Origin: Cheilinus undulatus
Lineage: Eukaryota; Chordata; Actinopteri; Labriformes; Labridae
Direction: 5' to 3'
Length of the DNA: 64,000 nt
NCBI RefSeq assembly: GCF_018320785.1
Contig: NC_054878.1
Coordinates: forward strand, 43,499,023-43,563,022
The notes beneath the pieces were generated by a model. The model worked only from the letters and a program-made list of their open reading frames with translations. It did not search any database and had not been told where the DNA came from. Positions 13,375 through 64,000 of the stretch are shown one piece after another; positions within the stretch are counted from its first letter, which is position 1, and the number at the start of each line of letters is the position of its first letter. Position numbers and translations under genes: made by a program.

Positions 13375-16300
13375 TTAATTTTTGCTGATGGTGCTGTAGA
13401 GACTGCTGGGATCATCGTCTTTCCCCATCTTAACTGCAGACTTGACTGTAGAATAAGTCACCGCATCTTCATTTACACCCTGTGGACAAAGGATGAAGAA
13501 TCACTCATATTATTAACTAAAAACACAGCTACAGGCTTCACTGTAAATTCTTTTTGACAGTTTATGAAAACTTGATAATGAAAGAATGAAAGAATTCAGG
13601 AAGTAGGAGTTGTGAAAGATTTTTAGTCAAGTTTTAATTTCCAGTCGAATAATCATTGGCATTCATGAGGGCTGTCGTGTAAATCTTGATGGATTTGAAG
13701 TCCAAAATGCATGCATTTTTTCAGTCACATGAACAGTTTGCTAGGTCGTCCTGTTTGATGCACCATGGTCATGCTGCAGTTCTGCACAGCTGATGAATAC
13801 TTGGTAAAGTGCTTTTTATTCTTACAGTGATTAAAATAGGACACCACTGCTCCCTCTAATGTCTCATTTCTCTTTTAAACTATTGAATGCCAGTCTGCGT
13901 GCCTCTGAAGGTATGCAACTGTCATTAGATCTTTGATGCAGAGCGGACACTGGTGCAAAGTTTTACAAAAATCCCTTAAAGTGCCCATTAGATATTGCAC
14001 AATTGTACATACACAATTGTACATACTGTATGTATTTATGGATGAATGACCTGAAAACATGATGCCTAAAACCCCCCACTGTCCCCAGCACAGAGACAAT
14101 AAAAAAACCACAGACAGCTCAGTGGAAAAGTCTAAAGTCATTAAGCACTTTGCTTTCTCACTCTTGAGCTATTTTCATTTTCTGTTCTATATGTAGTAAG
14201 CTTTTTTTGATTAAGCTAATGTTGTAACTTTCAGTCAACGAGATGTTCCTTATTTTATGTCAATGTGAGAGCAGGTTCATATTTAAACAGGAAGTCAGTT
14301 TAGAAAGGTACAATTCACAAAGCAAAAGCATAACAAACAAACAAACAAGAACAGAAAATATCTTGGGTCCCGTCCATACAGAGATGAATTCAGGAGTATA
14401 CGAAAAAGTTTTCTGTTGTATCGGCATTTCATCCACACGGAAACGGCGTTTTGGGTGACTGTAAACGATACTTTTTGAAAACGGGTCCCAGAGTGCATAA
14501 ATCCGTAAACGAATACCGTTTCGTCTCCGTGTGGACGGCATCTTTCCTGAAACGTTTACGTCACACACAGCGTAGCTCCCTTAAGGCACCTGCGCGGTTT
14601 CAGCCAAAACAATAATAGCAGATTACAGGGTTGTGTTTGTGCTGCAGAAGCTACTGAGCTTGTTATGGCTTTTACAGCAAAATCTGATGCTCCTTTCCCA
14701 CCATCGCGAAATGCATACACCAGATGTTCTTAAATCCAACGTGGAAAACAACCAGAAGGGTAACTAGAAGAAAGTTTGTGTCAGTTTTCTGTAATGTTCT
14801 TCTTCTCTTTTGGTGCATTTCCATGGCAGCAACACAGCGCCACGTACAGGCGTGGCATATGCACTACAGCGTTTTCAGTCGTTTCCAGTGGTTTCATGCT
14901 TACACGAATATTTCCTGAAACGATCCCGTCTTTACGGAAAACTCTTCCAAAACGAAATGGCAATATATCGCTTTCATCTCCATGTGGGCAGGGCCTTAGC
15001 CTCCTAGGCTACGCTCACACTGTAGGCCTAAATGCTCAATGCTAATCTTTTCTCAGACACTGGAGTCAACTTCCAAAAGATCAGTATCTTAGAACCGGAT
15101 ATGAAAGTGGCCTGAATCTGATTTGAAAAGTTCAGATTCAATGTGACTTGCGCTGTTCACACTTAGAGAAAAAAATCAGACACGAGATACATGTAAGCAA
15201 AATAATCAGATTCAGCTCACTTTTAACTGCAGTGTGAACGTAGCCCTTGTTAACCTTAGAGGGTCATGTCATTTTGTACATGCACTCCTGCATATTTTTA
15301 GATACTAAAGTATTTGGCTATCTACCAATGGCAGCATTCAAATACATGTACTTCATGTGGACTTGTTGTCCTTTCTGCAGCTAGCATTCATTCTGCAGAG
15401 TGTTTATGAAGTCAGGTACTGATGTTAGACAAGAACGCCTGACTTGCAATCTCCATACAAATTCATCTCAAAGGTGCAGGATGGGGTTGAGGTCACGGTT
15501 TTGTGCAGGCCAGTCAAGTTCTTCCCCACAGAACTTATAAAACCATGTCTTTATAGTCCTTCTTGGTGCACTGGGGCAGAGTCATGATGGAATAGAAAGG
15601 GATGTCCCCAAACTGTTGCCACAAAGTTGGAAGCATAGCATTGTCCAAAATGTCTTGGTATGCTGAAGGACTAAGATTATCGTTGACTGGTGATAAGTGC
15701 TGTAAAAAGCAGCCCCATACTGTTATCCCTCCCCCACCAAACTTCACAGTTGGCACAATGCAGTCAATGCAGTTTACACTGTTCAATCTGATGCTAGGCA
15801 TTGGACTTGGTGATGTGAGACTTGCATGCAGCTGCTCGGCTATGGAAACCCATCTATGAATCTCCCACTGGAATCAACAGAGCTTTGGCGGCTTTTATGA
15901 ACCATGAGCCTTAGCAGTCCCTGGATCTGTGATTTTGCAGTCTTCTACTTTGTGGCTTAGTTGTGGTGTTTCCTAAATGCCTCCACTTTCTAATAATATC
16001 ACTTAGAGCTGCCATTAAATTATCCAGCAGGAATGAAATTTGCTCCAGAACGACCAATTTAGTACCACCTCATGGCTAAATACTTGATTTTTTGCTTAAA
16101 ATCAATAATCAACAGATGTGGCCAAATACTTGTCCATATAGTCAATATACCAGTGTAAGAGAGTGTATTTGACAGAGCAAGCACTTTGAAGCAGACTCCT
16201 AAGACATGGTTTCACACCACACTGACGTAGTCATGTTGCACTCACTGAAAGAGTTATTCTAACAGTAAACATCATAAAACACAAACACACATCTCTTTGA

Positions 16301-19300
16301 CTTCATTTGATTCACAAATCAACTGATAAAAAAACATTTTTAGGTAAAGGCATGGTAAAGAAAGTTCTAGGTCATGGTAGATGTGATAAAACATAAATAC
16401 AGGTACTTACCCTTATATTTGAAAACGCCTGTTGTTTACTGTGATTTACAGTGACGTAGGTCAGATTACTCTCTGGATCATCCTGAGGGAAAAGAAAACA
16501 AAGGTTTACAATGTAAACACACACTGAAACACATTATTGCCTCTGTATTTTGTGTTGGGTAAACACAAGAACAAGTTTGAGATGAAAGATTGTGTAAAAA
16601 AATGTATTTCACTCACAGGTTGTTGGGTTGGTTTTGGAACATCTAAAAAAAAAGAAAAATGTATAATTCTTTACACATTATGTTTAAATTTGTACCAGTT
16701 TCAGTGAAAACATTTGTTTTTGAATTTTTTGTAATGATTCCCCTTTAACTAAAACAAGTATCAACCAGTAACATCTGAGTTACCTTTGTACTCGCACAGA
16801 ACTCCTGCTCTGATGTTGTCATACTTAGATTTGATAATATGGTCTTAAAACGTGATACACTATATTGCCAAAAGTATTCACTCACTAATCCAAATAATTG
16901 AAATCAGGTGTTCCAATCACTTCCATGGCCAAAGGTGTATAAAATCAGACTGTTTCTACAAACATTTGTGAAAGAATGGCTCGCTCTCAGGAGCTCAGTG
17001 AATTCCAGGGTGGTACTGTGATAGGATGCCACCTGTTCAAAAAGTCCAGTGGTGAAATTTCCTCTTTCCGAAATATTCCACAGTCAACTGTCAGTGGTAT
17101 TATAACAAAGTAAAGTGATTGGGAACGACAGCAACTCAGCCACCAAGTGGTAGGCCATGTAAAATGATGGAGCGAGGTCAGCGGATGCTGGCAATCTGAT
17201 GGACCAGTCTGGGTTTGGCGGTTGCCAGGAGAACGGTACTTGTCTGACTGCATTGTGCCAAGTGTAAAGTTTGGTGGAGGTTGGATTATGGTGTGGGCTT
17301 GTTTTTCAGGAGCTGGGCTTGGCCCCTTAGTTCCAGTGAAAGGAACTCTAAGATTTCGGACAATTCCATGTTCCCAACTTTGTGGGAACAGTTTGGGGAT
17401 GGCCCCTTCCTGTTCCAACATGACTGTGCACCAGTGCACAAAGCAAGGTCCATAAAGACATGGATGAGAGAGTTTGGTGTGGATCAACTTCACAGAGTCC
17501 TGACCTCAACCTGATAGAACACCTTTGGGATGAATTAGAGCGGAGACTGAGAGCCAGGCCTTCTCATCCAACATCAGTGTGTGACCTCACAAATGTGCTT
17601 CTGGAAGAATGGTCAAAAATTCCCATAGACACACTCCTAAACCTTGTGGAAAGCCTTCCCAGAAGAGTTAAAGGTGTTATAGCTGCAAAGGGTGGACTGA
17701 TGTCATAATAAACCCTATGGATTAAGAATGGGATGTCACTTAAGTTTATATGCGAGTCAAGGCAGGTGAGCGAATACTTTTGCTAATATTGTGTATCACA
17801 CAGCTGGCCAAATCTGAAATTAGTCTTTTGCTAAGAAGTCACGGGTAAGCTGCTCTGTTATTCGAGCGTGAATTGAGAATCACAACAAATGATATCATGA
17901 GATGGCAAATTATGGCATGACCATACATGGCAAAGCTAATCATGGGATAACCAATCATGACATGAAGAATAATGGCATAACCAATCACGGTATGACAAAT
18001 CTCGGCATAGCTAATTATGACATGGCGAATCCTTGCCTTACCAATTATAACATAGCCAATCGTGGAATGGCAAATTATGGGTAGCCAATCATAGCATGGC
18101 CAATCAAGCAACTGTGAATCATGCTAAAGCCAGTCATGGCATTGCAAATCAAGGCAACGTCAATGATGGCAAGGCAAATTATAGCATAGAGAACCCTGGC
18201 AAAGAGAATCATGACACAGTCATTCTGACATAGCCAATAATGACATAAAGAATCATGGGACAGCAAATCATGACAAAGTGAACAATGAGATTGTGAGCTT
18301 TAGCATAGTGAATCATATTGCAATAGGATTTCCCTGTCATGGCATAACATATTGTCATAAAGCACATCATTACAAAGTTTGTTATGACAGGGAATATCAC
18401 GGCACAGTGGCCTTCATGGCAGAACATATTTCAACATAGGAGTCTTCTGCAGCATCAGGTATCATGACATAGCCTTTTATGGCCTAAGGTATCATGAAAG
18501 AGCAATTATGACAAAGTATATCAAGGCATACTGCATTAACACATATCACAATACAGCGTAGTTCTTCCCAGCACAACAAAATACATCAGTATAGCATGTG
18601 CACTATAGCAAACTTTGACATGGAGTAACATAAACCTCATCGCAGCATCTTAGAGCAAACAAATCATAGAGTATTCTCTAACAGTGTATCCAAGTCCAAG
18701 TCCAAACCACATGAGCAGAAATTGTGTATAATGAAGTGTCACTGACCTGCAACTTTGTCTCTCTTTTTGTGTTTGATGAGAACAACAGCCATGATGATGA
18801 GAAGTAACACCACCCCAACCAAGACACCAACGATGATGAAGATTAGCTTAAGATCAGGACTGGAATTAGAACTAGGACCAGGACCAACACCAGGATCTTG
18901 TGTGGGATCTGGTATGGGATCTGTAGAAGAGAATGATTTCAGTGATTTAAATTTAATAACGTGCAATCCATTTGTTTTACAAGTAAAATAACTGATCTAA
19001 AGACTTGTAATTTGATAGCAGTATATTTATAGAATATTTAAGTTAACGTGTTTAAGCCATGTTTAGATTCTAGCCTCTTTATTATACTTCCAGTGATCTT
19101 AAGGTCTGCTCAGACTACACAAATTCAGCCAGATTTTGGCCCAACAGCATCGTCACAGCTTTGTTTTGTGTTTTTTCTTCTTCTTTTCAGGGCAAAAGAT
19201 GACAAGTGTCCCATAGAGCGGTTTGGGGGTAGCAGAAGTCTGATTCACTCTCTATGACCCACTTCCCTGTGAACTCACACACAGTCTGAGACAATGGTGA

Positions 19301-22300
19301 CATCAACATACGACTAGTGGTCAGGATCACTCTTGTAGTGTGGCAAGACATTGCATAGTTAGACACGGTGCCATTGTAAAAAAAAAAAAAAAACAGTGTT
19401 GTCTGAGCTGGCCTTGATGTGACCATACCTTTCAAAAAAGGTGTGTAGTCAGCCTCTATCTCCACAATGTTCTCCTTGTTAAGGACCTGGCAGGTGAATT
19501 TCTTGTTGTTTCCACTTTGACGCTTCACTTTCAGATAAGACAAACAGTCTGTACCTCTAGAATTCCTTTCAACACCTTCAGTTATTGTAGCTCCTGTCTC
19601 ATCTACCCAGTGGAGAGGGCTCGATGGACAGGAGTGGAGATCTCTGTATCTCATCAAAGAGCACTCCAAGCTCAGTTCATCGTCCCTCTTTGGATCAAAG
19701 TCTGCTGGTTCTGGAGAGACTGAAAGAAAACAAACGAGCTCAGTTAATAAAACGTTCATTCTGATGAAAACTTGGTGACTTTCCAAAAAGAAAAGCTTCT
19801 TTTGTGTTGTGCTCTGTGCAGGTGTTGATAGATGTGTGCATCTATAATTGTCAATTTGATATCCTGATGCATCAGGATTCATCCAAAACATGGCTGCTTT
19901 AAATCATAGAAGACAAACAGTCTGATCAAGTCCCTAAGTCAATGTGACTTTTTCTTTTTTTCTTCTTATAGAATTTACCCAAAATACATTAAATAACATC
20001 AACAATATAAAATACATTAAATTAATGATCTTATTTTAAGTAGAAGGTTTACATGAAAAGCTTTTAAATAAGGCATACTGAAATAGGCTTAATATTTGAA
20101 ACTATAAATAAAGGTTTAGCTGCTTTTTTCTCCTTTTTTCAGTTATTTATAGGTTAACTTGTTTCCAACCACATTTAAATAAAGTGTTACGTATTTAAAT
20201 TAAAAACCTTTATCTCTGTTTTTGTTTCACTCTCTCTCGTCTTATTTAATGAGTGGATGAACTTCATATCGTCCTGTTAGGATTTCAAACTGAGCTGAAA
20301 ATAAGACTAAGTTTCCTCCTTTCATATTCTTTTATTCACTCAAAGGATTTTTATACTGACTCAGGCTAATGCAGCTTTAAGGAAGGAGCTGATTGGTTGA
20401 GCAGCGTCACATGTGACTACTACTACCATAAAACCGCATCAATTAAAACAGACTACCAAAGCATATTTACAGCAGGTCCAGCTGCAAGAGAGAAGCTTCC
20501 AGACGACCTGAGGACTTCTACAAGATGGAGCTCATCGATTTAGGGCTACAAACATTTCTGCTTAAAAAGTTAGTCAGTGAGTTAGTTTAATTCAGGTTTT
20601 TGCATCTTTTCTTGCTTTGATCTCAGAAAATTTGTTTAAATTTTTTTTGTTACTTTATTTTCTTTAAAATGCAGTTTCTATTTGCAAATAACATCCATCA
20701 AAATATGGCATGAAGGCTTTTCTTTCTTTCTTTCTTTCTTTTTTTTCTACTGCAGTGAACTACATTCCCCAAGTTTTATAGCACTATTTAGAAATTCTAA
20801 GTAAATTCTACAAATTTTCAGAGATAATTGAATGTGTGAGTGTTTTTAAATGATTTTATAAGTCAAGTGGAGAGCAGTGGGAGGCTGAGCCAAACTGTCA
20901 GACTTTTTCACCCCATGTGGTCTTTTCCTCCACCAGAGAGTCTGTGAGCTATGGAAACATTCAAATTTATGTCGGTACCTTGCTTGGCGTCCGTGTAGCC
21001 ATAGCAACACATCATAATTGGTGCTGATTTATTTGTCTCATGTAAAGAACGACATGCTGGACAGCTCACCGCCTCATTGGCTGCTGGTAATGCCTCAATG
21101 CAAAGCAGAAGCCCCAAGACAGCGTAAATTCTGTTTTTTTTTTTTTTTTTTTTTTTTGTTTATGTGGAAGAAAAGACCAGCGGAAGGAGATGGATTTCCG
21201 GTTTCATCTTCTTCTATGCCGTCTTTTCTTCTTGTTTGCTGTTTGTTTGTAACCACAGCCCCTCTAATGGGCAGAGGTTGTTGGTGTTCAGACGGTTTAG
21301 TCCATTTGACCAAGGGCAGTGTGAATGCAAACCTGACCAAGAGCAATGTGAATGCGAACCAAACCAAAAGAAGGTGCAGCAATGTTGCAATTTCTGTTCC
21401 AAAACGGATCGAGCCTCCTGGACTATCAGGTGTAAAAATGACCTTAGACAAAGTCCCCAGGCATCCCTCAAGGCCCCATTTTAGGTCTCATTTACATTTT
21501 TATGTATTTGTAATCCTTATTTTAAAATGTAGATTTCTTTGCAAGCACATTACATATAAACATATCTGTGCAGAAAAATAAATAACTCCATGCAAGCCAT
21601 GCTTTACTAACATTTAAACATGGCTGGAATAAGACTTTTTCAAATCTCAATGAAAAGAAAGCTGAAAAAACACAGAAAGTACTGAAACTAGGGCTGAACA
21701 ATTTCGCAAAAGTAATTTAATTGCAAATTTTTCCCCCCAATATTGTGATTACAATTTAAAATGTGATTATTGTTGTCATCGTGTGTGTTTTTCCACAATT
21801 TGAAGCCATAAATCATTCTAATCATTCTAAAGGGGGTCCAGCCTGGTACTAGCAAGGTGTACCTAATAAAGCGGCTGGCATATATACGTGCGGTGCATCT
21901 GATTCAGGATGCCATGGAGCACATTGGAAAATTGGCCGCTGCAAAATTTAAGCATTGAGCACACAAACTATTAGAGCCCAAATACAAATTTAAAGACAAG
22001 AGATAGGACTTACCTTTAAAAAGACTTAAATACATGCGGACATCAAAAGTAGTAGTATCATCAAGTCGACATGTGTAGAGTCCAACATCCTCAGCAGAGA
22101 AATTTTTAATGACCAAAGAACAGTCGGTGCCCAATCTCAGCCGGTTAGCTCGGCGTGACGTCTTCTTCACCGTTCCTTTAATTGCCTCACCTAAAGTCTC
22201 TGATGAATCTCTGTTATAAAGCCATGAAATCCTGGAGCATTGTAGAGGTTGATACTGACTGTCACAGTGTAAGGTGACATCTTGATGGAAGTGGCTGTAA

Positions 22301-22524
22301 ATCTCTTTTTGACAAGTGCTCACTACGATGAAAAGAAGAAAAAGAAAAGCAAACATAAAGGCAGATCTGTGGAGATAACATTAGTTTTAATTAAAATGTG
22401 AACTAAACTGTTGCCTAACTTTCAGAGGTCCACTAGATCATTAAAGAGGAATCTGTTTTGAAAAGAAATCAGCTTTACCTTCAAACAGGAGTCCAACAAC
22501 AAAGATGACTTCCAGTGGAGTCAT
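13375..22524 (-). CDS. IgSF receptor gene A: V + C Ig domains, TM, three ITIM-like motifs
   Basis: Type I membrane receptor of 340 residues. Exons (minus): 22524..22479 leader, 22322..22014 V, 19719..19429 C, 18920..18747 stalk/TM, 16642..16617, 16482..16411, 13479..13375. All junctions are phase 1 until the 26-bp exon and phase 0 after it, 1023 bp in all. The start ATG opens [15 protein letters not shown], a signal peptide continuing into VSTC. The V domain has [23 protein letters not shown] with an NFS sequon, and [10 protein letters not shown]. The C domain starts [20 protein letters not shown] and has LHWVDETG and [15 protein letters not shown] Pro-rich stalk precedes [22 protein letters not shown]. 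The tail has LTYVTV, VTYSTV and SLYSTI, fitting the ITIM consensus [ILVS]xYxx[ILV], which recruits SH2 phosphatases; inhibitory function is inferred. Introns hold two Tc1 copies, MITEs and a minisatellite. I cannot place it firmly in NITR, DICP or another named family. Confidence 0.87.
14365..14995. mobile_element. hAT-like MITE in the last intron of gene A
   Basis: The left end GGGTCCCGTCCATACAGAGATG pairs imperfectly with the inverted right end at 14974-14995 (GGCCCTGCCCACATGGAGATG on the other strand). The interior repeats GTGTGGACGG and GAAACG-type motifs and has no transposase. A target duplication was not evident. Confidence 0.6.
15007..15245. mobile_element. 239-bp MITE with GGCTACGTTCACACTGCAG termini
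   Basis: The left terminus GGCTACGCTCACACTGTAG is the near-perfect inverse of the right terminus CTGCAGTGTGAACGTAGCC. It is non-coding, hAT-like by its ends, and sits right after the element ending at 14995. No clear 8-bp duplication was seen. Confidence 0.75.
15340..16150 (-). mobile_element. Tc1-like transposon remnant, reverse orientation
   Basis: On the minus strand, 15801-15535 encodes [19 protein letters not shown], then [10 protein letters not shown], which is the catalytic-domain block of Tc1 transposases. The terminus near 16110-16140 (AAATACTTGTCCATATAG) is of Tc1 type. The other end is missing and the frame is broken. It lies in the last intron of gene A. Confidence 0.75.
16856..17795 (+). 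mobile_element. Nearly full-length degenerate Tc1-like transposon
   Basis: The ends are inverted: TACACTATATTGCCAAAAGTA at 16856 and AATACTTTTGCTAATATTGTGTA at 17773-17795, with flanking TA. The transposase is scattered over frames: [20 protein letters not shown] (17252 on), [20 protein letters not shown], and [18 protein letters not shown] with [16 protein letters not shown] at the C terminus. Length is about 940 bp, shorter than an intact element. It is inserted in gene A between the TM exon and the 26-bp exon. Confidence 0.88.
17880..18560. repeat. Degenerate 16-18-bp minisatellite (AATCATGGCATGGCAAATCATG type)
   Basis: About 40 loose repeats of a unit like CATGGCAAATCATGGCATAGC-CAAT, with strong drift. 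It creates pseudo-frames on both strands rich in N/G/M/A or I/C/Y repeats. It is located in the same gene A intron as the Tc1 copy. Confidence 0.85.
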
Positions 22525-22566
22525 TCTGTGTTCATTCTCTGTCGGCACTAAAACATTTTCTGACTC

Positions 22567-22572
22567 TTTATA
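22567..22572 (-). promoter_or_regulatory. TATA box of IgSF gene A
   Basis: TATAAA on the minus strand (GAGTATAAAGAGTCAGA), 43 nt before the ATG. The same element at the same distance precedes genes B, C and D. Confidence 0.7.
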
Positions 22573-23912
22573 CTCATGAAAGTCACGCAAGTGGAGCAGC
22601 TTCCTCTTTGTGGTTGAATTGGTATGAAAATGACTTGAGAAACAGCCTTTCCTCCCAGCCAGCTTGTCACAAGTCCCACATACTCAGACTTACATTACTT
22701 CATTTCCCTTTACCGTACACAGACTTCACATGCACTCCTACTAGGAAAAACACCAACGCCACAAAGAGCAGTTTGACGGTTGAAAAAATGACAAAGAAAT
22801 TGGCAATGGTTTAATGTGAAGATCTATTGTGTATATAAGTTGATGATTCTGGTGAATGCTTGGGGGGATGGTTTATACCAGTGGATGATTAGCAGTGGGA
22901 TGGTGTAGGAGCCAAACATGTAAGTTTTGGAGATGCCTTTGGGGTAGGTGGGTTTTGGTTTATGCACGGATTAGTGGGCGTGGTTTTTAGTGGCACGGCG
23001 GTGATCAGTTAATTTACTTCACCTGTGCACATGTGGTGTGCTTCTGCTGGCAGTTGGAGTGTGGTGAGCACAGGGAGGACATTTTCTGTTGTTTTAGGTT
23101 AGAATTTGACCTATTATTGGGTTTTTGTTCAGTAAAGTTGTTCAATGGTATGATGCAGCGTTATGTAAATAAGCTGGGTTTGGTGAGATAAAGTAGCGAG
23201 TGCCTGTCATCACTTTGACTCCCGTGTTTAGCCTGCAGCGGCTTTAATTTTGGATGGATCGGCCGCTATAGATGGTTTAAAAGGGAGATATTCTGTGTTG
23301 AACTGTCTTTGATGGTGTTAACATGGTGCCCTTAAATAAATGAAAAGTGTTTTCCACCTGCTCCTTCATTGCCTCAGCCACTCCAGCCAGCTGACAGTCT
23401 AGGGATCTTAGGGGATCACAAGCTATTGTATACGGTGGCCTGGAAGGTCAAACAGCCTCCAACAGTCAGACACATTCCAACTAAAACAAGAAGACTGCAA
23501 TAAGACAAAAAACTGTCCAAGAATCAAAAATCGATTTCTGAATGGCAAACACAGAAACCTTGCTTGGGATATTCACCACATGAGCTATTTGTTTGGTAAA
23601 AATTCTAAATAAGAGTGAAATATTTTCACATAAAGCAGCATGTTCTGTTCACTTTAAAACACTTTCTGATAAGCTATTTTTTTTTTTTTTTTCAGTTTGA
23701 CACTCAGAACCATAAAGCCTTCTCACATCATCATCCATATTCAGTTTGGTGTCCTCTGCTGGACCCCAAAGGTCTCTAAGTGTAACTGCACTGTCATAAC
23801 AACAGGATGGTGAAGCTGCAGAAGACGCTGGGAGAAGCAGAAGAACCATGTGGACAAAGAAATCACAGTAATCCTACTGGACTCAGAGTCAGTGTGACTC
23901 TACTAGTGTCTA

Positions 23913-25316: not shown

Positions 25317-25317
25317 C

Positions 25318-28627: not shown

Positions 28628-29926
28628 TTGGCTCATACAGCAAATTTGATTTCAATTGCTATATTGAGGAAATAATTTTTCTTAATAAAAAAATTAATAA
28701 AATACTACTACTACAAATAATAATAATAACAATAATGATAATACCCACATCCCCACAACCACTGGTCCAGGCCACCTCCTCTAACACAGGGGTTTACTGA
28801 TGGTTTACACTGATCTCTGCTGATATTTGACTTTCTCCTGAGCTAATCTTGGTCTGGAAGTTGTTGAAGCTCCATAGAAGCAGCAGTATGATATCTTTCA
28901 TTTTCATAGTCGACTTCAGTGACATCTTCATGCACCTGTGAAATTCAACACAACCAATGAGATTCAAAACAACAAGTAAATGTGTCAAACTCTGCAGAGG
29001 CCATCATCTCAGAAGACAGAGGGAATTTCACATTACATTTTTCTGATCATATTCTTATGTTTTAAACTCACTTTACTCGATGGTTTGATGATCCCTGGAA
29101 GTACAATAACAAAAAAGCAGCATTAATGTTCTATGTCTGATCAGTCTGAACTATCTCTGCCACATTGATGGTGTTTATATCCTCACCTCTGAGGGTGAAG
29201 ACCAAAACAGAGCTCACGATCATCAAGACAAGAGCTGAAATACGCAGAGCGAGCATGATGGAGCTCAGAGGAGACCAGCCTGTGGAGTCTGTTGAAGCTT
29301 AAAGAAAAAAACACATGAATAAATGAATAACTGTAACTGAACGTATCAGGATATGTGTCAGTGAAGACAGAATTATAAACCCGAGCATTCTGGTCACCAT
29401 GAGGCTCAGGATCATTTTTTAAAATACCGAGCCACAAAGGAGAAATATTATTAGTGTGATTTCAAAGTTAGTTTAGAGAAAATGATGATAGATCATCTGC
29501 TCATTCTACTGAACAACACTGCAGACTATATTTAAATTCTTTGTATATAAATGTATTTTATGGTTGTTGAATAACTTGTTTCTGGTTCTGGAAGTATTAG
29601 AGGTCAAAGATCATACCCTCTTTCCTTTTGAGTTCAGTCCCCTGAGGTCTAAATGAAATGTCTGCTCTGTGTTTTGGTTCAAATATATCATAGATCAAGC
29701 ACCATAGAGCTTTTTTACCCCTTGACACTTTTGAGAGCGGCCTTAAGAGTCTTTTTGTTGGAAAACCCAAGAGCTCATTGTAACATCTGAAGAGCATGAC
29801 TTACTCAGATGGTCTTCAAACTTTCCATTCAAACCTGCCTTTGTGCTCTAAACTGCCTCCTTGTGCTGAGATTTAAACTTTAGCTGCTCGCTTAAATTTC
29901 CTGCTCATGCTCAAACCATTCTCCTC
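27139..29926. repeat. Segmental duplication block Z, copy 1
   Basis: Collinear with 58250..61576. It holds the L2 fragment, the last exons and TM exon of gene D, and intron DNA. Copy 2 differs by a 588-bp MITE at 59845; copy 1 has the empty site near 28770. Confidence 0.85.
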
Positions 29927-35285: not shown

Positions 35286-35288
35286 CTG

Positions 35289-35941: not shown

Positions 35942-35989
35942 CTAAAGAGCCAGAAGAGAGTGTTTGGGGTTGTGTTTAATGGCTTAGAC

Positions 35990-37505: not shown

Positions 37506-37511
37506 GAGATT

Positions 37512-37517
37512 TTTATT
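37512..37517 (-). terminator. Candidate polyadenylation signal of IgSF gene B
   Basis: AATAAA on the minus strand (GGAATAAAAATCTCAACTC), about 690 nt after the stop codon of gene B. It is conserved at 47814 for gene C. Confidence 0.45.
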
Positions 37518-43263: not shown

Positions 43264-43305
43264 TCTGTGTTCATTCTCTGTCGGCACTAAAACATTTTCT
43301 GACTC

Positions 43306-43311
43306 TTTATA
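43306..43311 (-). promoter_or_regulatory. TATA box of IgSF gene B
   Basis: TATAAA on the minus strand, 43 nt before the ATG, as in A, C and D. Confidence 0.7.
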
Positions 43312-44667
43312 CTCATGAAAGTCACGCAAGTGGAGCAGCTTCCTCTTTGTGGTTGAATTGGTATGAAAATGACTTGAGAAACAGCCTTTCCTCCCAGCCA
43401 GCTTGTCACAAGTCCCACATACTCAGACTTACATTACTTCATTTCCCTTTACCGTACACAGACTTCACATGCACTCCTACTAGGAAAAACACCAACGCCA
43501 CAAAGAGCAGTTTGATGGTTGAAAAAATGACAAAGAAATTGGCAATGGTTTAATGTGAAGATCTATTGTGTATATAAGTTGATGATTCTGGTGAATGCTT
43601 GGGGGGATGGTTTATACCAGTGGATGATTAGCAGTGGGATGGTGTAGGAGCCAAACATGTAAGTTTTGGAGATGCCTTTGGGGTAGGTGGGTTTTGGTTT
43701 ATGCACGGATTAGTGGGTGTGGTTTTTAGTGGCACGGCGGTGATCAGTTAATTTACTTCACCTGTGCACATGTGGTGTGCTTCTGCTGGCAGCTGGAGTG
43801 TGGTGAGCACAGGGAGGACATTTTCTGTTGGCCGCATGTTTTAGGTTAGAATTTGACCTATTATTGGGTTTTTGTTCAGTAAAGTTGTTCAATGGTATGA
43901 TGCAGCGTTATGTAAATAAGCTGGGTTTGGTGAGATAAAGTAGCGAGTGCCTGTCATCACTTTGACTCCCGTGTTTAGCCTGCAGCGGCTTTAATTTTGG
44001 ATGGATCGGCCGCTTTAGATGGTTTAAAAGGGAGACATTCTGTGTTGAACTGTCTTTGATGGTGTTAACATGGTGTCCTTAAATAAATGAAAAGTGTTTT
44101 CCACCTGCTCCTTCATTGCCTCAGCCACTCCAGCCAGCTGACAGTCTAGGGATCTTAGGGGATCACAAGCTGTTGCATACGGTGGCCTGGAAGGTCAAAC
44201 AGCCTCCAACAGTCAGACACATTCCAACTAAAACAAGAAGACTGCAATAAGACAAAAAACTGTCCAAGAATCAAAAATCGATTTCTGAATGGCAAACACA
44301 GAAACCTTGCTTGGGACAGTCACCACAGGAGCTATTTGTCTGGTAAAAATTCTAAATAAGAGTAAAGTATGTTCACATAAAGCAGCATGTTCTGTTCACT
44401 TTAAAACACTTTCTGATAAGCTAATTCTTTTTTTTTTTTTTTTTTTTCAGTTTGACACTCAGAACCATAAAGCCTTCTCACATCATCACCCATATTCAGT
44501 TTGGTGTCCTCTGCTGGACCCCAAAGGTCTCTAAGTGTAACTGCACTGTCATAACAACAGGATGGTGAAGCTGCAGAAGACGCTGGGAGAAGCAGAAGAG
44601 CCATGTGGACGGAGAAATCACAGTAATACTACTGGACTCAGAGTCAGTGTGACTCTGCTAGTGTCTA

Positions 44668-45159
44668 CTAGGGCTGAACCATTTGATAATAATTGAATTG
44701 CAGTTTTTTTTCCCCCAATATTGTGATAGCAATTTAATATGCAATTAATTTTTAGGGTTTTCATCTTATGTATTATTCCATAAAAATAAGCAATAAATCA
44801 TTCTAGATTATAAGCAACAAAAATTAGACAACATATCTCATTGGGATTTGGCTCATGTAGCAAATTTGATATCAATTGCTGTACTGAGGGGATAATTTTT
44901 CTTTATGTTATTCTCATTTTGATTAAGAAAATCATAAACACTGATAGGAAAAGCAGGATTTTAGTAAACTATTCTGAAAAGATGACACTTGTACATGTGC
45001 ATAATGTGAAGCGCATGCAATTTCTGCCGCAAAAAAATTGTATCAAATTGGTATTTTTCCACATTTCAGGATTAAAAAAATGTTGCAGTGTCTGCGATTT
45101 GAAAAGTGCAGCAGGCCAAAATAATTTGAGCTAATTTGCAATTTATTTCCCAGCCTTAG
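44668..45159. mobile_element. hAT-like MITE, duplicate of the copy at 23913
   Basis: Same termini (CTAGGGCTGAACCATT ... TTTCCCAGCCTTAG) and same position in block X. It was copied with the block and is not an independent insertion. Confidence 0.6.
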
Positions 45160-45235
45160 TATCCACTTCCAGTTGCTCACAACTGTTGCATGTGGTGTCG
45201 ACCAGTTGTAGCAGAGAAATGTTAAATAAAGCATC

Positions 45236-45293
<58 letters not shown>
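45236..45293. repeat. (GATA)n microsatellite joining block X copy 2 to block Y copy 2
   Basis: The left flank AATAAAGCATCA is that of block X and the right flank TTATTTATTGTCATTATATT is that of block Y, so the junction of the two blocks lies in the microsatellite. Confidence 0.95.
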
Positions 45294-48510: not shown

Positions 48511-51500
48511 TCAATCCTCTGCAGAAGCTCTGATGTTTTCATAGTTCACTGTCTCATCTTCATCATCCTCATCCACCTGTGAAAATCAACACAATCAAAG
48601 CAACACTCTGAAACACTCAGACTGATTGTAGCCCCTATACTAACAAAGACTAGACTGAACAGCCTCCTAAAATCAGCTGAGCAGTAACTAAACTCCACTC
48701 TCACTGCTTTTAAAAACTCACCACCTTATCATTCCTCTGTGATTGTTTCCCTGAAAGATGAGAGAAAGAGTGGATTTTTGCTTCCACAGAGAAAATACAT
48801 GTTTATATAAACTTCTTGTGTGTAAATTGAATCTGTGAATGTTCTCACCTTTAGTTCTTGTCCATATGTTGACGGTCACAACAGTTATGATGAGAGCTGA
48901 TAAACCCACAGAGACAACGATGAACCTGGCTGCAGAGAGAATGAGAGCAAATCAAATCTTTGTTGTAGGTTTCTATGAAAGAAAGTTGAAATGTCATTTA
49001 TGTGTAATAACACATTCATTTGTTTTTACAAACATAAAATAAATGATCAGAAAAATGTTCATCACTAGTGTTTAGATGAGAAGAGTCATTGGTTCCTGCT
49101 GCTGTGGTCTTTTCAGTCGGTCCTGTTGGTTTCATTGTTGTTTTTGTGGTTGTTGTTTGTGACGCTGTTGTTGTTTCTGTCATCGTTGTTGTTCATCCTC
49201 TAATCAGTTTATTAACTCCAAACACCTGCAAAGGTTTCCTGAGTCTTTATTCTCTGGCTCTGGTTCAGTTCACACAACCACAATCATGGAGAAGACTGCT
49301 GACTTCATAGTTGTCCAGAAGACAATCACTGACTCCCTCCACAAGGAGGGTAAGCCACAGAAGGCCACTGATGAAAAGACAGGCTGTTCTCAGAGTGCCT
49401 TATCAAAGGAATACAACACATACAGCAGTCAATTTAAACTCAACAACTACCACAGTAAAATACTGCACAAAGACAAAGCAACAACATAGCAGATCCCCAT
49501 TTTATACATGCCCTTAATATACAGAACTTTAAGCCTGGATATAACTGAACATGGTAGAGCTGTCATACAGGAACATAGGATTTAAAAACTAAACCTTTAA
49601 ACAGGTTTATATCACCAGTACAGATGTTGCTGGACTTCTTATGGACTTGGGAAAGATTCTCTCGACAAGCACAACACCAGCCTGACCTGAGCTGGATCAG
49701 GCCAGAATCCTGTCCCAGCTAATTTGAACTGACTCTCAAAGAATCTTGGGATATGTCAGGCCACAAAGGCGACACCATTTGGTGTTTAAAGAAAGAAGGA
49801 TGGATTTGAAGGAGGTTTCAAAATGGGACAGTTGCCTTCAAGCTTGCCCTCCATAGATGCAGCTCCTGAATTGGGACCTAAATACGATCTTCAGCAGCTT
49901 TAAAACTGCAGGGAGTGAGACAGTCTGCACATCTGGCTTTTCAAAAGTCTGTTTACATGCATCTCTTTGGTGCAAAAACAGTTGTGTCTTCTTTACCTTT
50001 GAGAATTGAGGACTCACTGGGACCAGCATCAGAACCAGGACCAACGCCGGGATCTTGTGTGGGATCTTGTGTGGGATCTTGTGTGGGAACTTGTGTGGGA
50101 TCTTGTGTGGGAACTTGTGTGGGATCTTGTGTGGGATCTTGTGTGGGATCTGTAAAAGAGTATGATTTCAGTGATTAAATCTGATAACGTGCAATCCATT
50201 TGTTTTACAAGTAAAATAACTGATCTAAAGACTTATAAATTGATAGCAGTATATTTATAGAATATTGAAGTTGATGAGACCATACCTTTGAAAGAAGGTG
50301 TGTAGTCGGCCTCTACCTCCACCTTGTTGTTGATAAAGACCTGGCAGGTGAATGTCTTGTTGTTTCCACTTTGACGCTTCACTTTCAGATAATACAAACA
50401 GTCTGCACCTCTATAGTTCTTTCCAACACCTTCAGTTATTGTAGCTCCTGTCTCATCCACCCAGCGGAGAGGGTTCGATGGACAGGAGTGGAGATCTCTG
50501 TATCTCATCAAAGAGCACTCCAAGCTCAGTTCATCGTCCCTCTTTGGATCAAAGTCTGCTGGTTCTGGAGAGACTGAAAGAAAACAAGCCAGCTCAGCTA
50601 ATAAAACGTTCATTCTGATGAAAACTTGGTGACTTTCCAATAAGAAAACTTTCTATTTATCTTTAAGACACTAACTAGACCAGCAGTACTTTTTTCTATA
50701 AAATTACACATGGCTAATTTTTATCAATGAACAGTCTGATGAACTCCTTGATTCAATGTATACTTTTTTCCTCTTGTATAATTTACCTGAATTATGTTGA
50801 ATAACATTAACAATATAAAATACATTAAATTAATAACCTTATATTAAGTAGAAGGTTTACATGAAAAGCTATTAAATAAGGCATACTGAAATAGGCTCAA
50901 TATTTGAAACTATAAATAAAGCTTTAGCTGTTTTTCTCCTGTTTTCAGTTATTCATAGGTTAACTTATTTCCAGTGGTGTGCGGGGGGGGGGGGGGGGGG
51001 ATTACCCCCTTTGCGGCCAAATTGTTGAAAAACCCGTGCTAAAGTGCCCTCTTTGGAGCCAAAACACGTGCTTAAGTGCCCTCCTGGTTGATAAAACCCA
51101 CTAAACTGCCCCCGTGGGTGAAGAAAACACACTAAACTCCAGAAGACCATTAGGACCAAGAGATACTATGAAACATTACTTTTGCAATGACTTTCATGTT
51201 GGGCCCTTTCTTGATCTATATTGATCCAGAACTATATCTCACAGAACTAGTTTGGATTGTCTGGTGCTAATATGGTGTTAAAATACACTAGAATACAGGA
51301 AATGACAACTTAGTTGAAAATGTTCTGGGGGAAGACCCCCAGAACCCCTAGGGATTTATTTATTTCTGTGTGTTCTTCACAGTCCAGCGTTGAATCTACA
51401 CAGTTCTTGTGGATGCTGATCCTAACTACAAACTAATGTGAGTAGTCTGTCTAGTTAGTCTGTTTTAAGGCTATATAATGTGCCACTTATATGACATATA

Positions 51501-54191
51501 AACATGTCTAAAGTGCCCTCGAAAACACGCAAACGTCCACACACACATCCCTGCCCTTGAAAAAGTCTGTGCACGCCACTGCTTATTTTCAACCACATTT
51601 AAATAAAGTGTTAGATATTGAAATTAAAAAGCTTTATCCCTGTTTTTGTTTCACTCTCACTCGTCTTATTTAATGAGAGGAATGAACTTCACATCGTCCT
51701 GTTAGGATTTCAAACTGAGCTGAAATAGACTAAGTTTCCTCCTGTCATATTCTTTTATTCACTCATTAAAGGATTTTTATACTGACTCAGGCTAATGCAG
51801 CTTTAAGAAAACATTGTTTACACGCTATTAGGAAGTGTTCTACTGTTTTGGGATAATGTTGAATTAATCATACAGGGCTCTTAGTTCATTTATTTCCGTG
51901 TCATGTCTGCTCCACAGGTGTGTGTTTATTCATATTTATGTCAACATTACTGCATTCAGCCATCACAACAGCACTGAAAATATGAGACACTCTGGTTTTA
52001 AACTATCAGTGAGACATACAGTGAAAAAGTATTTGACCCCTTTCTGATTCCTGACTTTTCTATTGGCATATTTATCACACTTAAATGTTTCGGATCATCG
52101 AACCACTTTTAGTATCTCACAGAGACAACCCAAATAAATACAAAATGCAGTGTCTGAATGATTATTTAATTCTTTTAAAGAAATATTCTGTGGACTGACA
52201 AGACAAAAGCTGAACTTTCTGGAAGGTGTGTGGCCCGTTACATCTGGAGTAAAAATATCACAGCATTTGATTCAAAGAACATCATGCCAACAGTCAAACA
52301 TGGTGGCGGCAGTGTGATGGTCTGGGGCTGCTTTGCTGCTTCAGGACCTGGACCACTTGCTGTGATTCATGGAACCATGAATTCTGCTGTCTACCAGAAA
52401 ATCCTGAAGGCCAACGTCCGGCCATCAGTTCATGACCTCAAGCTCAAGCGCTCTTGGGTTATGCAGCAGGACAAGTCCAGACTGAAATCCAGTTGAGATC
52501 CTGTGGTGTGACCTTCAACAGGCAGTTCATGCTGCCTGTTTAAGATCAGCATGCAGTTAACTCAGCCATATTCTCCAATATGGCTGAATTAAAACAATTC
52601 TGGGAAGAAGATTGGGGCAAAATTTCACCACAGCGATTTTAAAGACTCATCACCAGTTATCACAAATGCTTGATTTTGGTTATTGCTGGCAAGGGTGGAA
52701 CAACCAGTTATTAGGTTCAGGGGGGCTATTACTTTTTCAAACAGGGCCAGATAGGTTTGGTTGGTTTTGCAAGAGCCACAATCTAAATGGTGAAAAGTGG
52801 CAAAATGAGTTGAATTGGAAATAAAAATGAGTACAAGGTGGAAAAATGGTCAAAAAAAAGTGGCAAAAAATGGGTGAAAAGGGAAAAAAGGCATAAAATG
52901 GACAAAAATAAGTGCAAAGTCGCAAAAAAATGACATCCATGTAATCAAAAATGCAGCAAAAATAAAGTCTAAAGTGATTAAAACTGGCAAAACAGGTGGG
53001 AAAATGGAGGGAAAGTGGCATTTACTGGCAAAAGCATCTTGAATGGGTGAAAAGTGGCAAACAAGGGGGAAAAACTGCAAAACAGCAGGATGAAAGTTGC
53101 AAAAACTGCTAAAAAATTCAAACCCAGGGCAAAAGTGGAAAAAAATTTGCAAAAAGTGGCTAAAAGAAGTGGTAAAAATGGAATGAAAGCAGCAGAAATG
53201 GATTAAAAGTGACAGAAAATGTAAAAAAAGAAAAAAAAAAGGGACAAAAATGCATATAAGGGCAAAATATACGGAAAAAAAATAAAGGTGGACAATTAAG
53301 TTTGACCATTAGTACCTACTGTATAAGCGTGGGAAACAAACTGATTAATGTGACTTGCAATGGATCATTTCTGAGGTCAAAGTCTCTATTTTAAAGGTTT
53401 CTATTTCAAATGAAGACATACAGGAGCCACAAATCATCACAAAAGAGCCACATGCTGAGAATCACTGAATTATGTTTATAAATTAAACAAATGCACTTGC
53501 TGAGATTGCAGTTTTTTGAGTGTTTTGATGAGATTTTTCAGCTTTATTAAGAAGGGGATGATTATTGACTTGCTCCTCTTGCTATTGCATCTCTGCTTGC
53601 AAACAGAACTAAGCACAAATCTGAAAAATAAAAGATAAAGACTTACTTCTGAGAAGACTTAGGTACACATTGGCAGCTTGTTGACCTCTCTGTCGACACG
53701 TGAAGCGACCAACATCCTCAGCAGTGACATTTTTAATGGCCAAAGAACAGTCGATGCCCAAACTCGTCTGATCAGCTCTGGGTGACCTCTGATAAATCTT
53801 TCCTCTCCTTGTCTCTAAAGTGGCTCCTGATGAATCTCTGTAATAAAGCCAGAAAACGTTGGAGCATCGTCGAGATCGATTCTGACTGCCACAGGGCAGG
53901 GTGACATCTTTACCAGGTTGGGAGTAGAGATAAATCTCTTCTTGACTGTTGCCCACTAAAATGACAAGAAGCAAACATGAAAGTAGATCTGTGGAGAAAA
54001 AAGTGAATGAAACTGCCGCCTAACTTTTAGAGGTTCATCAGATCATTAAAGCTGATCAACAAGGTCAAGACGACTGTATATGCAGCAGTAATATTTACAG
54101 GTAGCCTAAATCATGACACCTGTTTGAAATAGAAATCAGCTTTACCTTCAAACAGGAGTCCAACAACAAAGATGACTTCCAGTAGAGCCAT
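48511..54191 (-). CDS. IgSF receptor gene C: V + C receptor, expanded DPTQ stalk, one ITIM
   Basis: Predicted 323 residues. Exons (minus): 54191..54146 leader, 53955..53647 V, 50573..50286 C, 50149..49997 stalk, 48929..48849 TM, 48750..48722, 48576..48511; 972 bp in frame. The V domain is closest to gene D: SQEEIYLYSQPGKD, TLPC, CSNVFWLYYRD, IDCSLAIKNVT, DVGRFTCRQ. The first cysteine seen in A and D (STCQ/GNCQ) is Ser here (GNSQ). The C exon is one codon shorter than in A and B. The stalk has eight PTQ repeats (DPTQ or VPTQ) where B has one. TM and tail are the same as in gene B, with the ITIM VNYENI. The V-C intron contains a 610-bp hAT-type MITE, a Tc1 remnant and a satellite-like repeat. 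An inhibitory role is inferred. Confidence 0.85.
49066..49176 (-). other. Candidate alternative Thr-rich stalk exon of gene C
   Basis: Same sequence and phases as 38763..38873 in gene B (duplicated with block Y). Same weak acceptor. Confidence 0.35.
49217..49415 (+). mobile_element. Tc1-like transposon N-terminal fragment (copy in block Y2)
   Basis: Duplicate of 38914-39115. It lost two bases near the right side (CAGCAGTCAA against CAGCAGTGTTCAA). Confidence 0.65.
50051..50149 (-). repeat. Coding 12-bp minisatellite in the stalk exon of gene C
   Basis: Eight units of TCTTGTGTGGGA or ACTTGTGTGGGA (plus strand), reading (D/V)PTQ on the coding strand. Two units carry T-to-A, giving Val for Asp. 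All units keep frame. Confidence 0.92.
50972..51581. mobile_element. 610-bp hAT-type MITE in gene C, with target duplication
   Basis: Termini CAGTGGTGTGC and GCACGCCACTG are inverted, flanked by CTTATTTC and CTTATTTT (7 of 8). The paralogous introns at about 20157, 41013 and 62385 read straight through (for example AACTTATTTTCGACCACATT), giving empty sites. Inside are a G run of about 18 at 50983 and repeated AGTGCCCTC motifs. It is non-coding. Confidence 0.88.
52018..52740 (+). mobile_element. Degenerate Tc1-like transposon
   Basis: Begins ACAGTGAAAAAGTATTTGAC and ends near GGGGGCTATTACTTTTTCA. The catalytic remnant at 52230-52490 reads [40 protein letters not shown], then GWVMQQDK-like sequence. 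The 5' half of the transposase is deleted. Confidence 0.85.
52745..53330. repeat. Degenerate GTGGCAAAAATGG satellite-like repeat
   Basis: Loose tandem units such as AAAAGTGGCAAAATGAG and GGGTGAAAAGTGGCAAAC. It starts GCAAGAGCCACAATCTAAAT, exactly as at 63281, and is followed by GGAGCCACAAATCATCAC. It is the same family as 661-1110 in the opposite orientation. Confidence 0.75.
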
Positions 54192-58215: not shown

Positions 58216-58249
58216 CAGACAGGCAGACAGACAGATAGGTTGATTGATT

Positions 58250-60432: not shown

Positions 60433-61942
60433 TAGGCCACCTCCTCTAACACAGGGGTTTACTGATGGTTTACACTGATCTCTGCTGATATTTGACTTTC
60501 TCCTGAGCTAATCTTGGTCTGGAAGTTGTTGAAGCTCCATAGAAGCAGCAGTATGATATCTTTCATTTTCATAGTCGACTTCAGTGACATCTTCATGCAC
60601 CTGTGAAATTCAACACAACCAATGAGATTCAAAACAACAAGTGTGAATGTGTCAAACTCTGCAGAGGCCATCGTCTCAGAAGACAGAAGAAATGTCACAT
60701 TACATTTTTTAGATCATAGTTTTTCACTCACTTTACTGGGTGGTTTGAAGTTCCCTGGAATTAAAATAACAAAAAAGCAGCATTAATGTTCTATGTCTGA
60801 TCAGTCTGAACTACCTCTGCCACATTGATGGTGTTTATATCCTCACCTCTGAGGGTGAAGACCAAAACAGAGCTCACGATCATCAAGACAAGAGCTGAAA
60901 TACGCAGAGCGAGCATGATGGAGCTCAGAGGAGACCAGCCTGTGGAGTCTGTTGAAGCTTAAAGAAAAAAACACATGAATAAATGAATAACTGTAACTGA
61001 ACGTATCAGGATATGTGTCAGTGAAGATAGAATTATGAACCTGAGCATTCTGGTCACCTTGAGGCTCAGGATCATTTTTTAAAATACCGAGCCACAAAGG
61101 AGAAATATTATTAGTACGATTTCAACGTCAGTTAAGAGAAAATGATGATAGATCATCTGCTCATTCTACTGGACAACACTGCAGACTATATTTAAATTCT
61201 TTGTATATAAATGTATTTTATGGTTGTTGAATAACTTGTTTCTGGTTCTGGAAGTATTAGAGGTCAAAGATCATACCCTCTTTCCTTTTGAGTTCAGTCC
61301 CCTGAGGTCTAAATGAAATGTCTGCTCTGTGTTTTGGTTCAAATATATCATAGATCAAGCACCATAGAGCTTTTTTACCCCTTGACACTTTTGAGAGCGG
61401 CCTTAAGAGTCTTTTTGTTGCAAAACCCAAGAGCTCATTGTAACATCTGAAGAGCATGACTTACTCAGATGGTCTTCAAACTTTCCATTCAAACCTGCCT
61501 TTGTGCTCTAAACTGCCTCCTTGTGCTGAGATTTAAACTTTAGCTGCTCGCTCAAATTTCCTGCTCATGCTCAAACCTTTTAAACCTCCTTTAAAAAGAG
61601 AAACCACATTTATTTCATGAATGCATGAATAATAATCCCACCTCTGTTATCTTTGAAGAAGAGAGTGTGGTCGGCCTGTATCTCCACGTTGTTGTTGTTA
61701 AGGACCTGGCAGGTGAATTTCTTCTTGTTTCCACTTTGACGCTTCACTTTCAGATAAGACAAACAGTCTGAATGGTTGGAGCTCTTTTCAACACCTTCAG
61801 TTATTGCAGCTCCTGTCTCGTCCACCCAGTGGAGAGGGTTCGATGGACAGTCGGAGAGAAGACTGTATCTCATCAAAGAGCACTCCAAGCTCAGTTCATC
61901 GTCCCTCTTTGGATCAAAGTCTGCTGGTTCTGGAGAGACTGA

Positions 61943-63276
61943 AAGAAAACAAGCCAGCTCAGTTAAAAAAAAACGATCATACTGATGAAAACTTGGTGAC
62001 TTTCCATAAAGAAAAGCTTCTTTTGTGTTGTGCTCTGTGCAGGTGTTGATAGATCTGTGCATCTTGACTCGTCTCATGATTCGATTCAATATCCCGATGC
62101 ATCAGGATTCATCCAAAACATGGCTGCTTTAAATCAATGAGACAAACAGTCTGATCAAGTCCCTAAGTCAATGTGACTTTTTCTTCTTTATCTTCTTATA
62201 GAGTTTACCTGAATTATGTTAAATAACATCAACGATATGAAATATATTCAATCAATAATCTGATTCTAAGTAGAGTTTTTTCATGAAAAGCTTTTAAATA
62301 AGGCATACTGAAATAGGCTTAATGTTTGAAACTATAAATAAAGGTTTAGCTGTTTTTCTCCTTTTTTCAGTTATTCATAGGTAAACTTATTTTTGACGAC
62401 ATCTGAATAAAGCTTTATAAATTGAAATTAAAAAGCTTTATCTCTGTTTTTGTTTCACTCTCTCTCGTCTTATTTAATGAGAGGAATGAACTTCACATCG
62501 TCCTGTTAGGATTTCAAACTGAGCTGAAAATAAGACCAAGTTTCCTCCTGTCATGTTCTTTAATTCACTCATTAAAGGATTTTTATACTGACTCAGGCTA
62601 ATGTAGCTTTAAGAAAGGAGCTGATTGCTTGAGTAGCGTCACGTGTGACTACTACTACCGTAAAGACACGCAAAGCTGCACCATTTATAACAGTCTACCA
62701 TTGAAATGCATTGAAAAAAGCTCAGTTTAAAGCATATTTACAGCAGGTCCAGCTGCAAGAGAGAAAATACATAAGCAGCACTGTCTGCATCTGTTATGAG
62801 CTGCTAAGCAGAATCGTCAGTGTTTGCATCACAGATATTATAATTTCAACACCACTAGGTATTGACAGTATGGGGCTTGGGAACCAACATCAAGTTGCAT
62901 TATGAAGCGCAGCAGGCATGGTGAGGGGCTATGATAAAAGAACAGAGATAGAAAGTGCTTGAAAGAGACTGATGCAGATTTTGCTTTCATCCTCCCCACC
63001 TGTGGATCAAGCTTCCAGAAGACCTGAGGACTTCTGCAAATGGGAGCTCATCCATTTACAGCTCAAAACATTTCTGCTTAAAAAGTTACTCAGTTAGTTT
63101 AATTCAGGTATCTCGCATCTTTTCTTGCTTTTACCTTAGCATTTTGTTGCAAACTTGTTTTAACATTTTAATTTTGTTTTACTTTAGTGTCTTTCAAACA
63201 CAGTTTCTATTTGTGAATAACATCAATCAAAATGTGGTTACTCAACGCCGCTCGACCAAAGAGCCAAACTCTTGAA
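61943..63276. other. C-V intron of gene E, no recognised gene
   Basis: Collinear in part with the same introns of A, B and C (for example TTTAATGAGAGGAATGAACT at 62474 against 51672). The segment near 62730-63110 resembles 20460-20590 and may be an old LINE remnant. No coding exon was found. Confidence 0.5.
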
Positions 63277-63560
63277 AAACACTTTTGCAAGAGCCACAAT
63301 CTAAATGGTGAAAAGTGGCAAAATGTTAAAATGAGTTAAATTGGCAATAAAAATGACTACAAGGTGGAAAAATGGTCAAAAATCAGCATAAAATGGACAA
63401 AAATGAGTGCAAAGTCACAAAATATTGAGTTCCATATAATAAAAAAGAATAAGCGTGGAAAACAAACTGATTAATGTGACTTGCAATGGATCATTTCTGA
63501 GGTCAAAGTCTCTATTTTAAGGTTTCTTGAGATAAACTATTTCAAATGAAGACATACAGG
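63277..63560. repeat. Degenerate GTGGCAAAAATGG satellite-like repeat, short copy
   Basis: GCAAGAGCCACAATCTAAAT and the following bases match 52767 onward. The central array is much shorter here; the common right flank (CATACAGGAGCCACAAATCA) follows. It occupies the position in gene E's C-V intron that the 52.75-53.33 kb array has in gene C. Confidence 0.75.
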
Positions 63561-64000
63561 AGCCACAAATCATAATAGCAAACAAAATAGCAACAAGTTG
63601 ACTATCACTGGATTATGGTTATAAATTTAACAAATGCACTTGCTGAGATTGCAGTTTTTCAGTGTTTTGATGAAATTTTTCAGCTTTATTAAGAAGGGGG
63701 TGATTATTGACTTGCTCCTCTTGCTATTGCATCTCTGCTTGCAAACAGAAAGGGTCTCTGTCGTTAAGATCTTCCCCAATCACCAGTGAGACCAGCAGTT
63801 TCAGAGGACGGGTACTAACGGAGACCAAGCACAAATCTGAAAAATGAAAGATAAAGACTTACTGCTAAGAAGACTTAGGTACATATGGACATCTTTGTGA
63901 CCGTCCTGTCGTCACGAGAAACGACCAACATCCTCAGCAGTGACATTTTTAATGGCCAAAGAACAGTCGATGCCCAAACTCATCCGATCAGCTCTGGGTG

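Follow-up and report, generated by a model that had tools for sequence, protein, structure and literature searches.

Candidate paired immunoglobulin-type receptors, one of them a hybrid gene, at the edge of a large tandem array in Cheilinus undulatus

Background

How do neighbouring receptor genes with nearly the same outer domains come to carry different signalling tails? KIR, LILR and other mammalian paired receptors combine similar outer domains with opposite tails, and paired receptors are thought to acquire new signalling signs through recombination. The question is raised for a fish by a 64,000-nucleotide stretch of Cheilinus undulatus DNA ('the window', C14:43,499,023-43,563,022, in a genome of 1.17 Gb and 46 contigs; C14 is contig NC_054878.1), in which a preliminary description made from sequence alone had recognised five tandem receptor genes, each with two immunoglobulin (Ig) domains, and had proposed that they form a paired-receptor cluster. 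We find that the genes G1 to G5, numbered by rising coordinate, are a real, mostly intact set of co-oriented V-C2 receptors on the margin of a large array, and we consider it probable that they are paired, germ-line-encoded leukocyte receptors reshuffled by recombination, which is the best reading of the locus. Positions given without a contig prefix are in window numbering.

Results

In the final exon models the minus strand carries all five receptor genes:

G1, 13375..22524, minus strand: 7 exons, 340 residues; leader 22479-22524, V 22014-22322, C 19429-19719, stalk plus transmembrane (TM) segment 18747-18920, cytoplasmic 16617-16642, 16411-16482 and 13375-13479; supported by open frame, GT/AG and phases; V-set E 3.1e-8
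G2, 28843..34196, minus strand: 6 exons, 292 residues; leader 34151-34196, V 33642-33950, C 31975-32271, TM 29187-29297 (Arg), then 29072-29094 and 28843-28935; V-set E 1.1e-5
G3, 38209..43263, minus strand: 7 exons, 300 residues; leader 43218-43263, V 42753-43061, C 40286-40576, stalk 39698-39778, TM 38546-38626, then 38420-38448 and 38209-38274; V-set E 5.2e-8
G4, 48511..54191, minus strand: 7 exons, 323 residues; leader 54146-54191, V 53647-53955, C 50286-50573, stalk 49997-50149 (DPTQ repeats), TM 48849-48929, then 48722-48750 and 48511-48576; V-set E 1.2e-6
G5 (broken), 60508..64000 and continuing past the window end, minus strand: V end 63863-64000, C 61642-61938, TM 60847-60957 (Arg), then 60732-60754 and 60508-60600

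The co-oriented genes and single exon plan of the preliminary description are borne out: the leader exon is 46 bp and the V exon 309 bp in 5/5 genes, the C exons measure 291, 297, 291, 288 and 297 bp from G1 to G5, all junctions from leader to TM are phase 1, and an exon of 23-29 bp follows, with the tail exons entered in phase 0. GT and AG are present at each internal exon boundary used. An open frame runs to a stop codon in G1 (340 residues), G2 (292), G3 (300) and G4 (323), the four genes that lie whole in the window; G5, also placed inside it by the preliminary description, has its leader (64362-64407) beyond the window end, together with the 5' portion of the V exon (63863-64171). The V exon of G5 contains an in-frame TGA at the F-strand cysteine codon; this TGA recurs in a copy of G5 lying about 20 kb further right (84.4-84.7 kb), which makes a base-call error unlikely.

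The start of the V exon was fixed by reading frame. G1 (22.3-22.4 kb) and G3 (43.1 kb) carry an 11-bp pyrimidine-rich insertion near this start (read by hand); in both, only the inner acceptor (..CATCGTAG) is in frame with the leader, whose splicing to the outer acceptor would produce a frameshift, and the insertion also extends the pyrimidine tract of the inner site. An outer acceptor is usable in G2 and G4, and V exons starting there were dropped because the frame breaks in G1 and G3.

All four window-complete V exons match Pfam V-set (E 3.1e-8 to 1.1e-5, the score of G2 being equal to the curated cut-off). Invariant cysteines occupy V positions 16, 25, 64 and 81 (4/4 aligned V domains), and the C domain has four (5/5 genes). 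V exons end in ..YLSLFK, ..HLSLLS or ..YLSLLR and C exons in ..ADYTPFLK or similar. G1 and G3 are 98% identical in the V domain and 97% in the C domain. The top PDB sequence match of the whole ectodomain is JAML (E 1.6e-4), a kinship that we rejected and took as generic Ig similarity because JAML is outside both the best 60 of the 111 matches of the V profile (titin first, 3.2e-7) and the matches of the C profile. The ectodomain had no match among phage records.

The three tail types of the preliminary description are recovered in number: three, one and no ITIM-like tyrosines (ITIM, immunoreceptor tyrosine-based inhibitory motif), the last with a TM arginine. G1 has three (NLTYVTV, AVTYSTV, SLYSTI); G3 and G4 have a TM segment free of internal charge and a tail, TVNYENI, with one; G2 and G5 have a single TM arginine (..IMLALRISALVLMI..) and the tail VDYENE. 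What changes is the relation of the last two types, whose final exons both open V-x-E-D and both hold YEN, differing at the +3 residue (E or I): the tails counted as 'one' and 'none' appear to be homologous forms of the same final exon. On this reading the ITIM status of G3 and G4 hinges on isoleucine at +3. YxN is also a Grb2-type site. With one residue of ITIM fit separating the G3/G4 tails from those of G2/G5, only G1 is clearly ITIM-rich, and G1 is the sole gene that can be predicted confidently to be inhibitory. G1 and G3 are 97-98% identical in their outer domains, but the signalling sign of the G3 tail (YENI) is uncertain.

Within the 264 kb that we read (the window plus 100 kb on either side) there are seven G2-type tails, six of which keep YEN, and seven G2-type TM segments, of which six have the arginine and the seventh is frameshifted at that point. 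Another G2-type TM and tail set, located some 149 kb beyond the right end of the window, keeps YEN but has histidine in place of arginine. The two left-neighbour tails examined contain one YEN (VFYENS) and one YED (VVYEDP). The G2 TM-and-tail peptide matched DUF7807 only below cut-off (E 0.0093).

The similarity of G1 and G3 ends abruptly within one exon, as the following segments show:

G3 5' part (upstream region, leader, V, part of next intron), 41303..45283, minus strand: 97.8% identical to G1 20550-24528 (3,996 aligned columns)
G3 middle part with C exon, 39732..41307, minus strand: 95.0% identical to G1 18874-20450 (1,587 columns)
G3 3' part (stalk, TM, tail and 3' flank with BTB exon), 35149..39780, minus strand: 99.5% identical to G4 45449-50079 (4,635 columns)
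G3 stalk exon, 39698..39778, minus strand: switch from G1-like to G4-like in a three-way alignment of G1, G3 and G4

The alignment places the switch to about 20 bp, around a shared GTTGGTCCTGG inside the stalk exon. As judged from these comparisons G3 is a hybrid, with the outer domains of G1 on the tail of G4 and one exchange in the stalk exon. This exon measures 153 bp with DPTQ-type repeats in G4 vs 81 bp in G3, and we infer that the repeats may have promoted the exchange. A BTB-domain frame lies in the 3' flank of both G3 and G4 (35.6-36.0 and 45.9-46.3 kb, minus strand; Pfam BTB 2.2e-9 for the first copy, the one scanned) and is probably a gene fragment carried along with the 99.5% segment.

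Conservation extends upstream of the coding exons, as exemplified by G1:

G1 upstream block, 22525..22700, minus strand: ACCACAAAGAGGAAG at 22600-22614 and TATA-like GAGTATAAAG; the exact 15-mer recurs at 43339-43353 and 54267-54281

About 200 bp 5' of the ATG are common to 8/8 genes with a leader match, each containing a TATA-like stretch along with ACCACAAAGAGGAAG or a close variant. A search of the window at up to one mismatch found the 15-mer three times (0.01 expected), always exact and always upstream of a leader (G1, G3, G4); G2 has a form with two changes, and the most diverged of the eight genes, at 93.6 kb, retains ACCACAAAGAGGAA. We take the 15-mer to resemble adjoining RUNX and PU.1/ETS sites, an arrangement that would suit expression in blood cells. 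Since the genes are recent copies, this conservation is weak evidence.

The window forms the left end of a single large V-C2 receptor cluster. A search of the genome with the C domain of G4 scored 40 candidates and gave 39 matches at an E-value no higher than 0.001, every one of them in C14:43,518,452-43,885,363 (367 kb). They represent approximately 38 C exons, because one frameshifted exon accounts for two of the matches, and two more span only 42 residues; the count is a lower bound, as very diverged C domains elsewhere may escape. The 264 kb contain 16 C matches (15 exons) and 27 V matches, 17 of them in the window and to its right; the 10 to the left represent 8 exons, two being split in two. 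The left V genes examined have a different second domain (of CEHTVQWFY type) and G3/G4-like TM segments (6 matches). Profile comparison by hhalign gave a probability of 98.8 for our V domain against a left-neighbour V and 0.1 for our C domain against the left second domain.

Several further arrangements were seen in and around the array. At C14:43,698,500-43,714,500 five V-C exon pairs follow one another at steps of about 1.9-3.2 kb, mostly 2.6, with phase-1 splice sites in 10/10 exons and, at the end only, a single TM segment (histidine for arginine) and a single YEN tail of known type; no leader of known type was found in this stretch, whose layout suggests a single receptor gene with ten Ig domains. 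On the plus strand at 126.65-131.3 kb, three V exons followed by one C exon make a possible V-V-V-C gene. Three tandem units of about 10.3 kb, 97-99% identical, occupy 58.1-85.5 kb and run into the right flank; two have the same V stop, and the middle one (gene at 74 kb) is frameshifted in C and TM. Reverse-transcriptase-like (25-28 and 56-59 kb) and Tc1-transposase-like (5.1-5.6, 15.5, 17.0-17.7 and 52.2 kb) frames, picked by eye from the list of open reading frames, lie between genes and may help unequal exchange. Cytochrome P450 exons adjoin the cluster at 1.8-7.9 kb on the plus strand (Pfam p450 1.7e-19, frame at 6.2 kb), with a similar second P450 stretch in the left flank (by eye), and a von Willebrand A-like frame (DGSGSVG.., by eye) sits between receptor genes at 133.9-134.3 kb, plus strand.

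Discussion

If these genes are paired receptors, they would be displayed on leukocytes and recognise ligands. G1 would inhibit, its three ITIMs recruiting SHP-type phosphatases, and G2, like G5 before breaking, would activate through an adaptor (FcR-gamma or DAP12) pairing with the TM arginine; the YEN tyrosine of G3 and G4 fits an ITIM as well as a Grb2-type YxN site. Exchange between tandem copies keeps the frame because the exon joints from leader to TM are all phase 1, and one such event in the stalk exon gave G3 its G1 outer domains and G4 tail. The cluster resembles KIR and LILR in combining similar outer domains with differing tails and differs from them in Ig domain types. Of the original proposal of a paired-receptor cluster, the anatomy stands and is strengthened by the G1/G3 tail exchange; its weaker side is that G1 alone is confidently inhibitory, that G2 is not near-identical to G1 and that G5 is broken.

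Several results weigh against the paired reading or qualify it. The 264 kb contain a single copy of the ITIM-rich tail and a further 16 kb read contain none, so 'paired' rests on one inhibitory gene, and the TM-arginine gene G2 is only 53% (V) and 77% (C) identical to it. All exon junctions of G1-G5 are predictions. The C domain has no significant Pfam match (the best Ig model, C2-set_2, gives E 0.14 for G2 and 0.07 for a flank relative) and no significant PDB sequence match (best E 0.22), and AlphaFold models of the single V and C domains are poor (predicted local distance difference test score, pLDDT, 43 each). The ratio of nonsynonymous to synonymous rates (dN/dS) exceeds 1 in 10/10 V and 4/10 C pairs of G1-G5, with 32 nonsynonymous vs 5 synonymous differences in the G2-G4 V pair, yet 0/20 pairs reach p<0.05 (best Fisher p 0.078 over these 20 non-independent pairs), and the cluster-wide medians are 0.80 for V (134/136 pairs used) and 0.67 for C (90/91). 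A claim of diversifying selection was dropped, since no pair is significant and the cluster medians lie below 1.

To which family do the genes belong? Of the named families listed in the preliminary description, two are set aside. According to PMC2442602, NITRs are V-type receptor genes that occur in clusters, mostly with ITIMs and in a few cases with a TM arginine, and are marked by a six-cysteine I domain and by J motifs (FGXGTXLXV) ending V and/or I. The cluster resembles NITRs in holding ITIM (G1) and TM-arginine (G2/G5) forms together, a trait of many receptor families. It differs from them in that a J motif occurs in 0/5 genes (translations read by eye) and in that four cysteines, rather than six, are invariant in the C domain (5/5); the strict J-motif pattern FG.G[TS].L.V was also absent from loci L001-L008 and L029-L033. 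This fish has many V-set matches at C22:3.60-4.09 Mb, and the one gene read there (L031) is NITR-like, with a six-cysteine second domain, J-like ends (by eye) and both domains in one exon; against L031, the only NITR-like gene compared, hhalign gave a probability of 17.3 for V and 0.2 for C against its I domain. We rejected NITR identity on the missing J motif, the four cysteines and this low similarity to one NITR-like gene.

NILTs, as presented in PMC3022915 for salmonids and cyprinids, have a CX3C, CX6C or CX7C cysteine pair and form tight clusters with ITIM tails, pseudogenes and transposable elements, their introns being phase 1 and then phase 0 before the last tail exon. Our cluster shares the tight clustering, the intron phases (unspecific), ITIM tails, pseudogenes and transposable elements. 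V cysteines at 16, 25, 64 and 81, however, give no spacing of 3, 6 or 7, and on this ground NILT identity was rejected. The second Ig domain of NILTs, where present, is V-type; the C domain here, which matches no Pfam Ig model significantly, is not recognised as such.

It is quite possible, if somewhat short of probable, that the genes form an unnamed teleost Ig-superfamily receptor family sharing V ancestry with its left neighbours and having its own C domain. The V profile is far closer to a left-neighbour V domain than to the NITR-like V, and the C domain resembles neither the second domain of the left genes nor the I domain of the NITR-like gene and has no match outside the C14 region. Public databases, however, probably hold such proteins as uncharacterized, and the C profile is shallow, built from five near paralogues, so that distant kinship may escape. 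Alternatively, and we hold this as a tentative possibility, the genes are the DICPs of this fish, members of a family named in zebrafish: DICPs combine a V-type D1 with an Ig-like D2 and have varied tails and clusters, a plan that the present genes would share. DICPs are also linked to major histocompatibility complex class I. PMC6869251 describes them as a multigene family for which homologues in mammals are not readily recognised and whose Ig domains are lipid-binding, a description taken in favour of this identification. DICPs are touched on too in PMC5340972, PMC8818700 and PMC7867084, and NITRs and other fish receptors in PMC4810170 and PMC3031540; zebrafish NK-like cells have many uncharacterized Ig-like receptors (PMC5340972). 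No description of the present family was found among titles and the beginnings of abstracts, a coverage outside which most subscription papers fall, leaving absence unproved.

A different kind of alternative is that the cluster is decaying, its tails and copies being by-products of segmental duplication and few of its genes functional. The stop shared by G5 and its copy, the frameshifted gene at 74 kb and the near-identity of the three tandem units point that way, but in G1-G4 the frames remain open, the splice signs are canonical and both leader and TM are kept, and we regard general decay as improbable. That G3 is an assembly artefact of two haplotypes or near-identical repeats, as the extreme similarity of its flanking segments (97.8% and 99.5%) might allow, is more improbable still, for the switch falls within the stalk exon with the frame kept, and scattered substitutions set G3 apart from both G1 and G4.

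Conclusions

Reshuffled paired receptors therefore remain our preferred account, and what is new here is the hybrid joined within a stalk exon, the C domain matched in a single region, the broken fifth gene and the common YEN tail. A bolder version, which taken as a whole is rather unlikely, is an unnamed family with a private C domain (approximately 38 C exons in the 367-kb array) in which the repeat-bearing stalk exon is a crossover point swapping whole tails, and single genes grow by added V-C pairs to as many as about ten Ig domains; if true, differently signalling forms of one specificity would arise by a single event. The cluster stands apart from the NITR-like genes that this fish also has. 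Since the exchange is placed to about 20 bp within a stalk exon, and the array around it includes copies that are broken, hybrid or possibly multiplied in their domains, resequencing and expression can directly test how paired receptors are born in fish.

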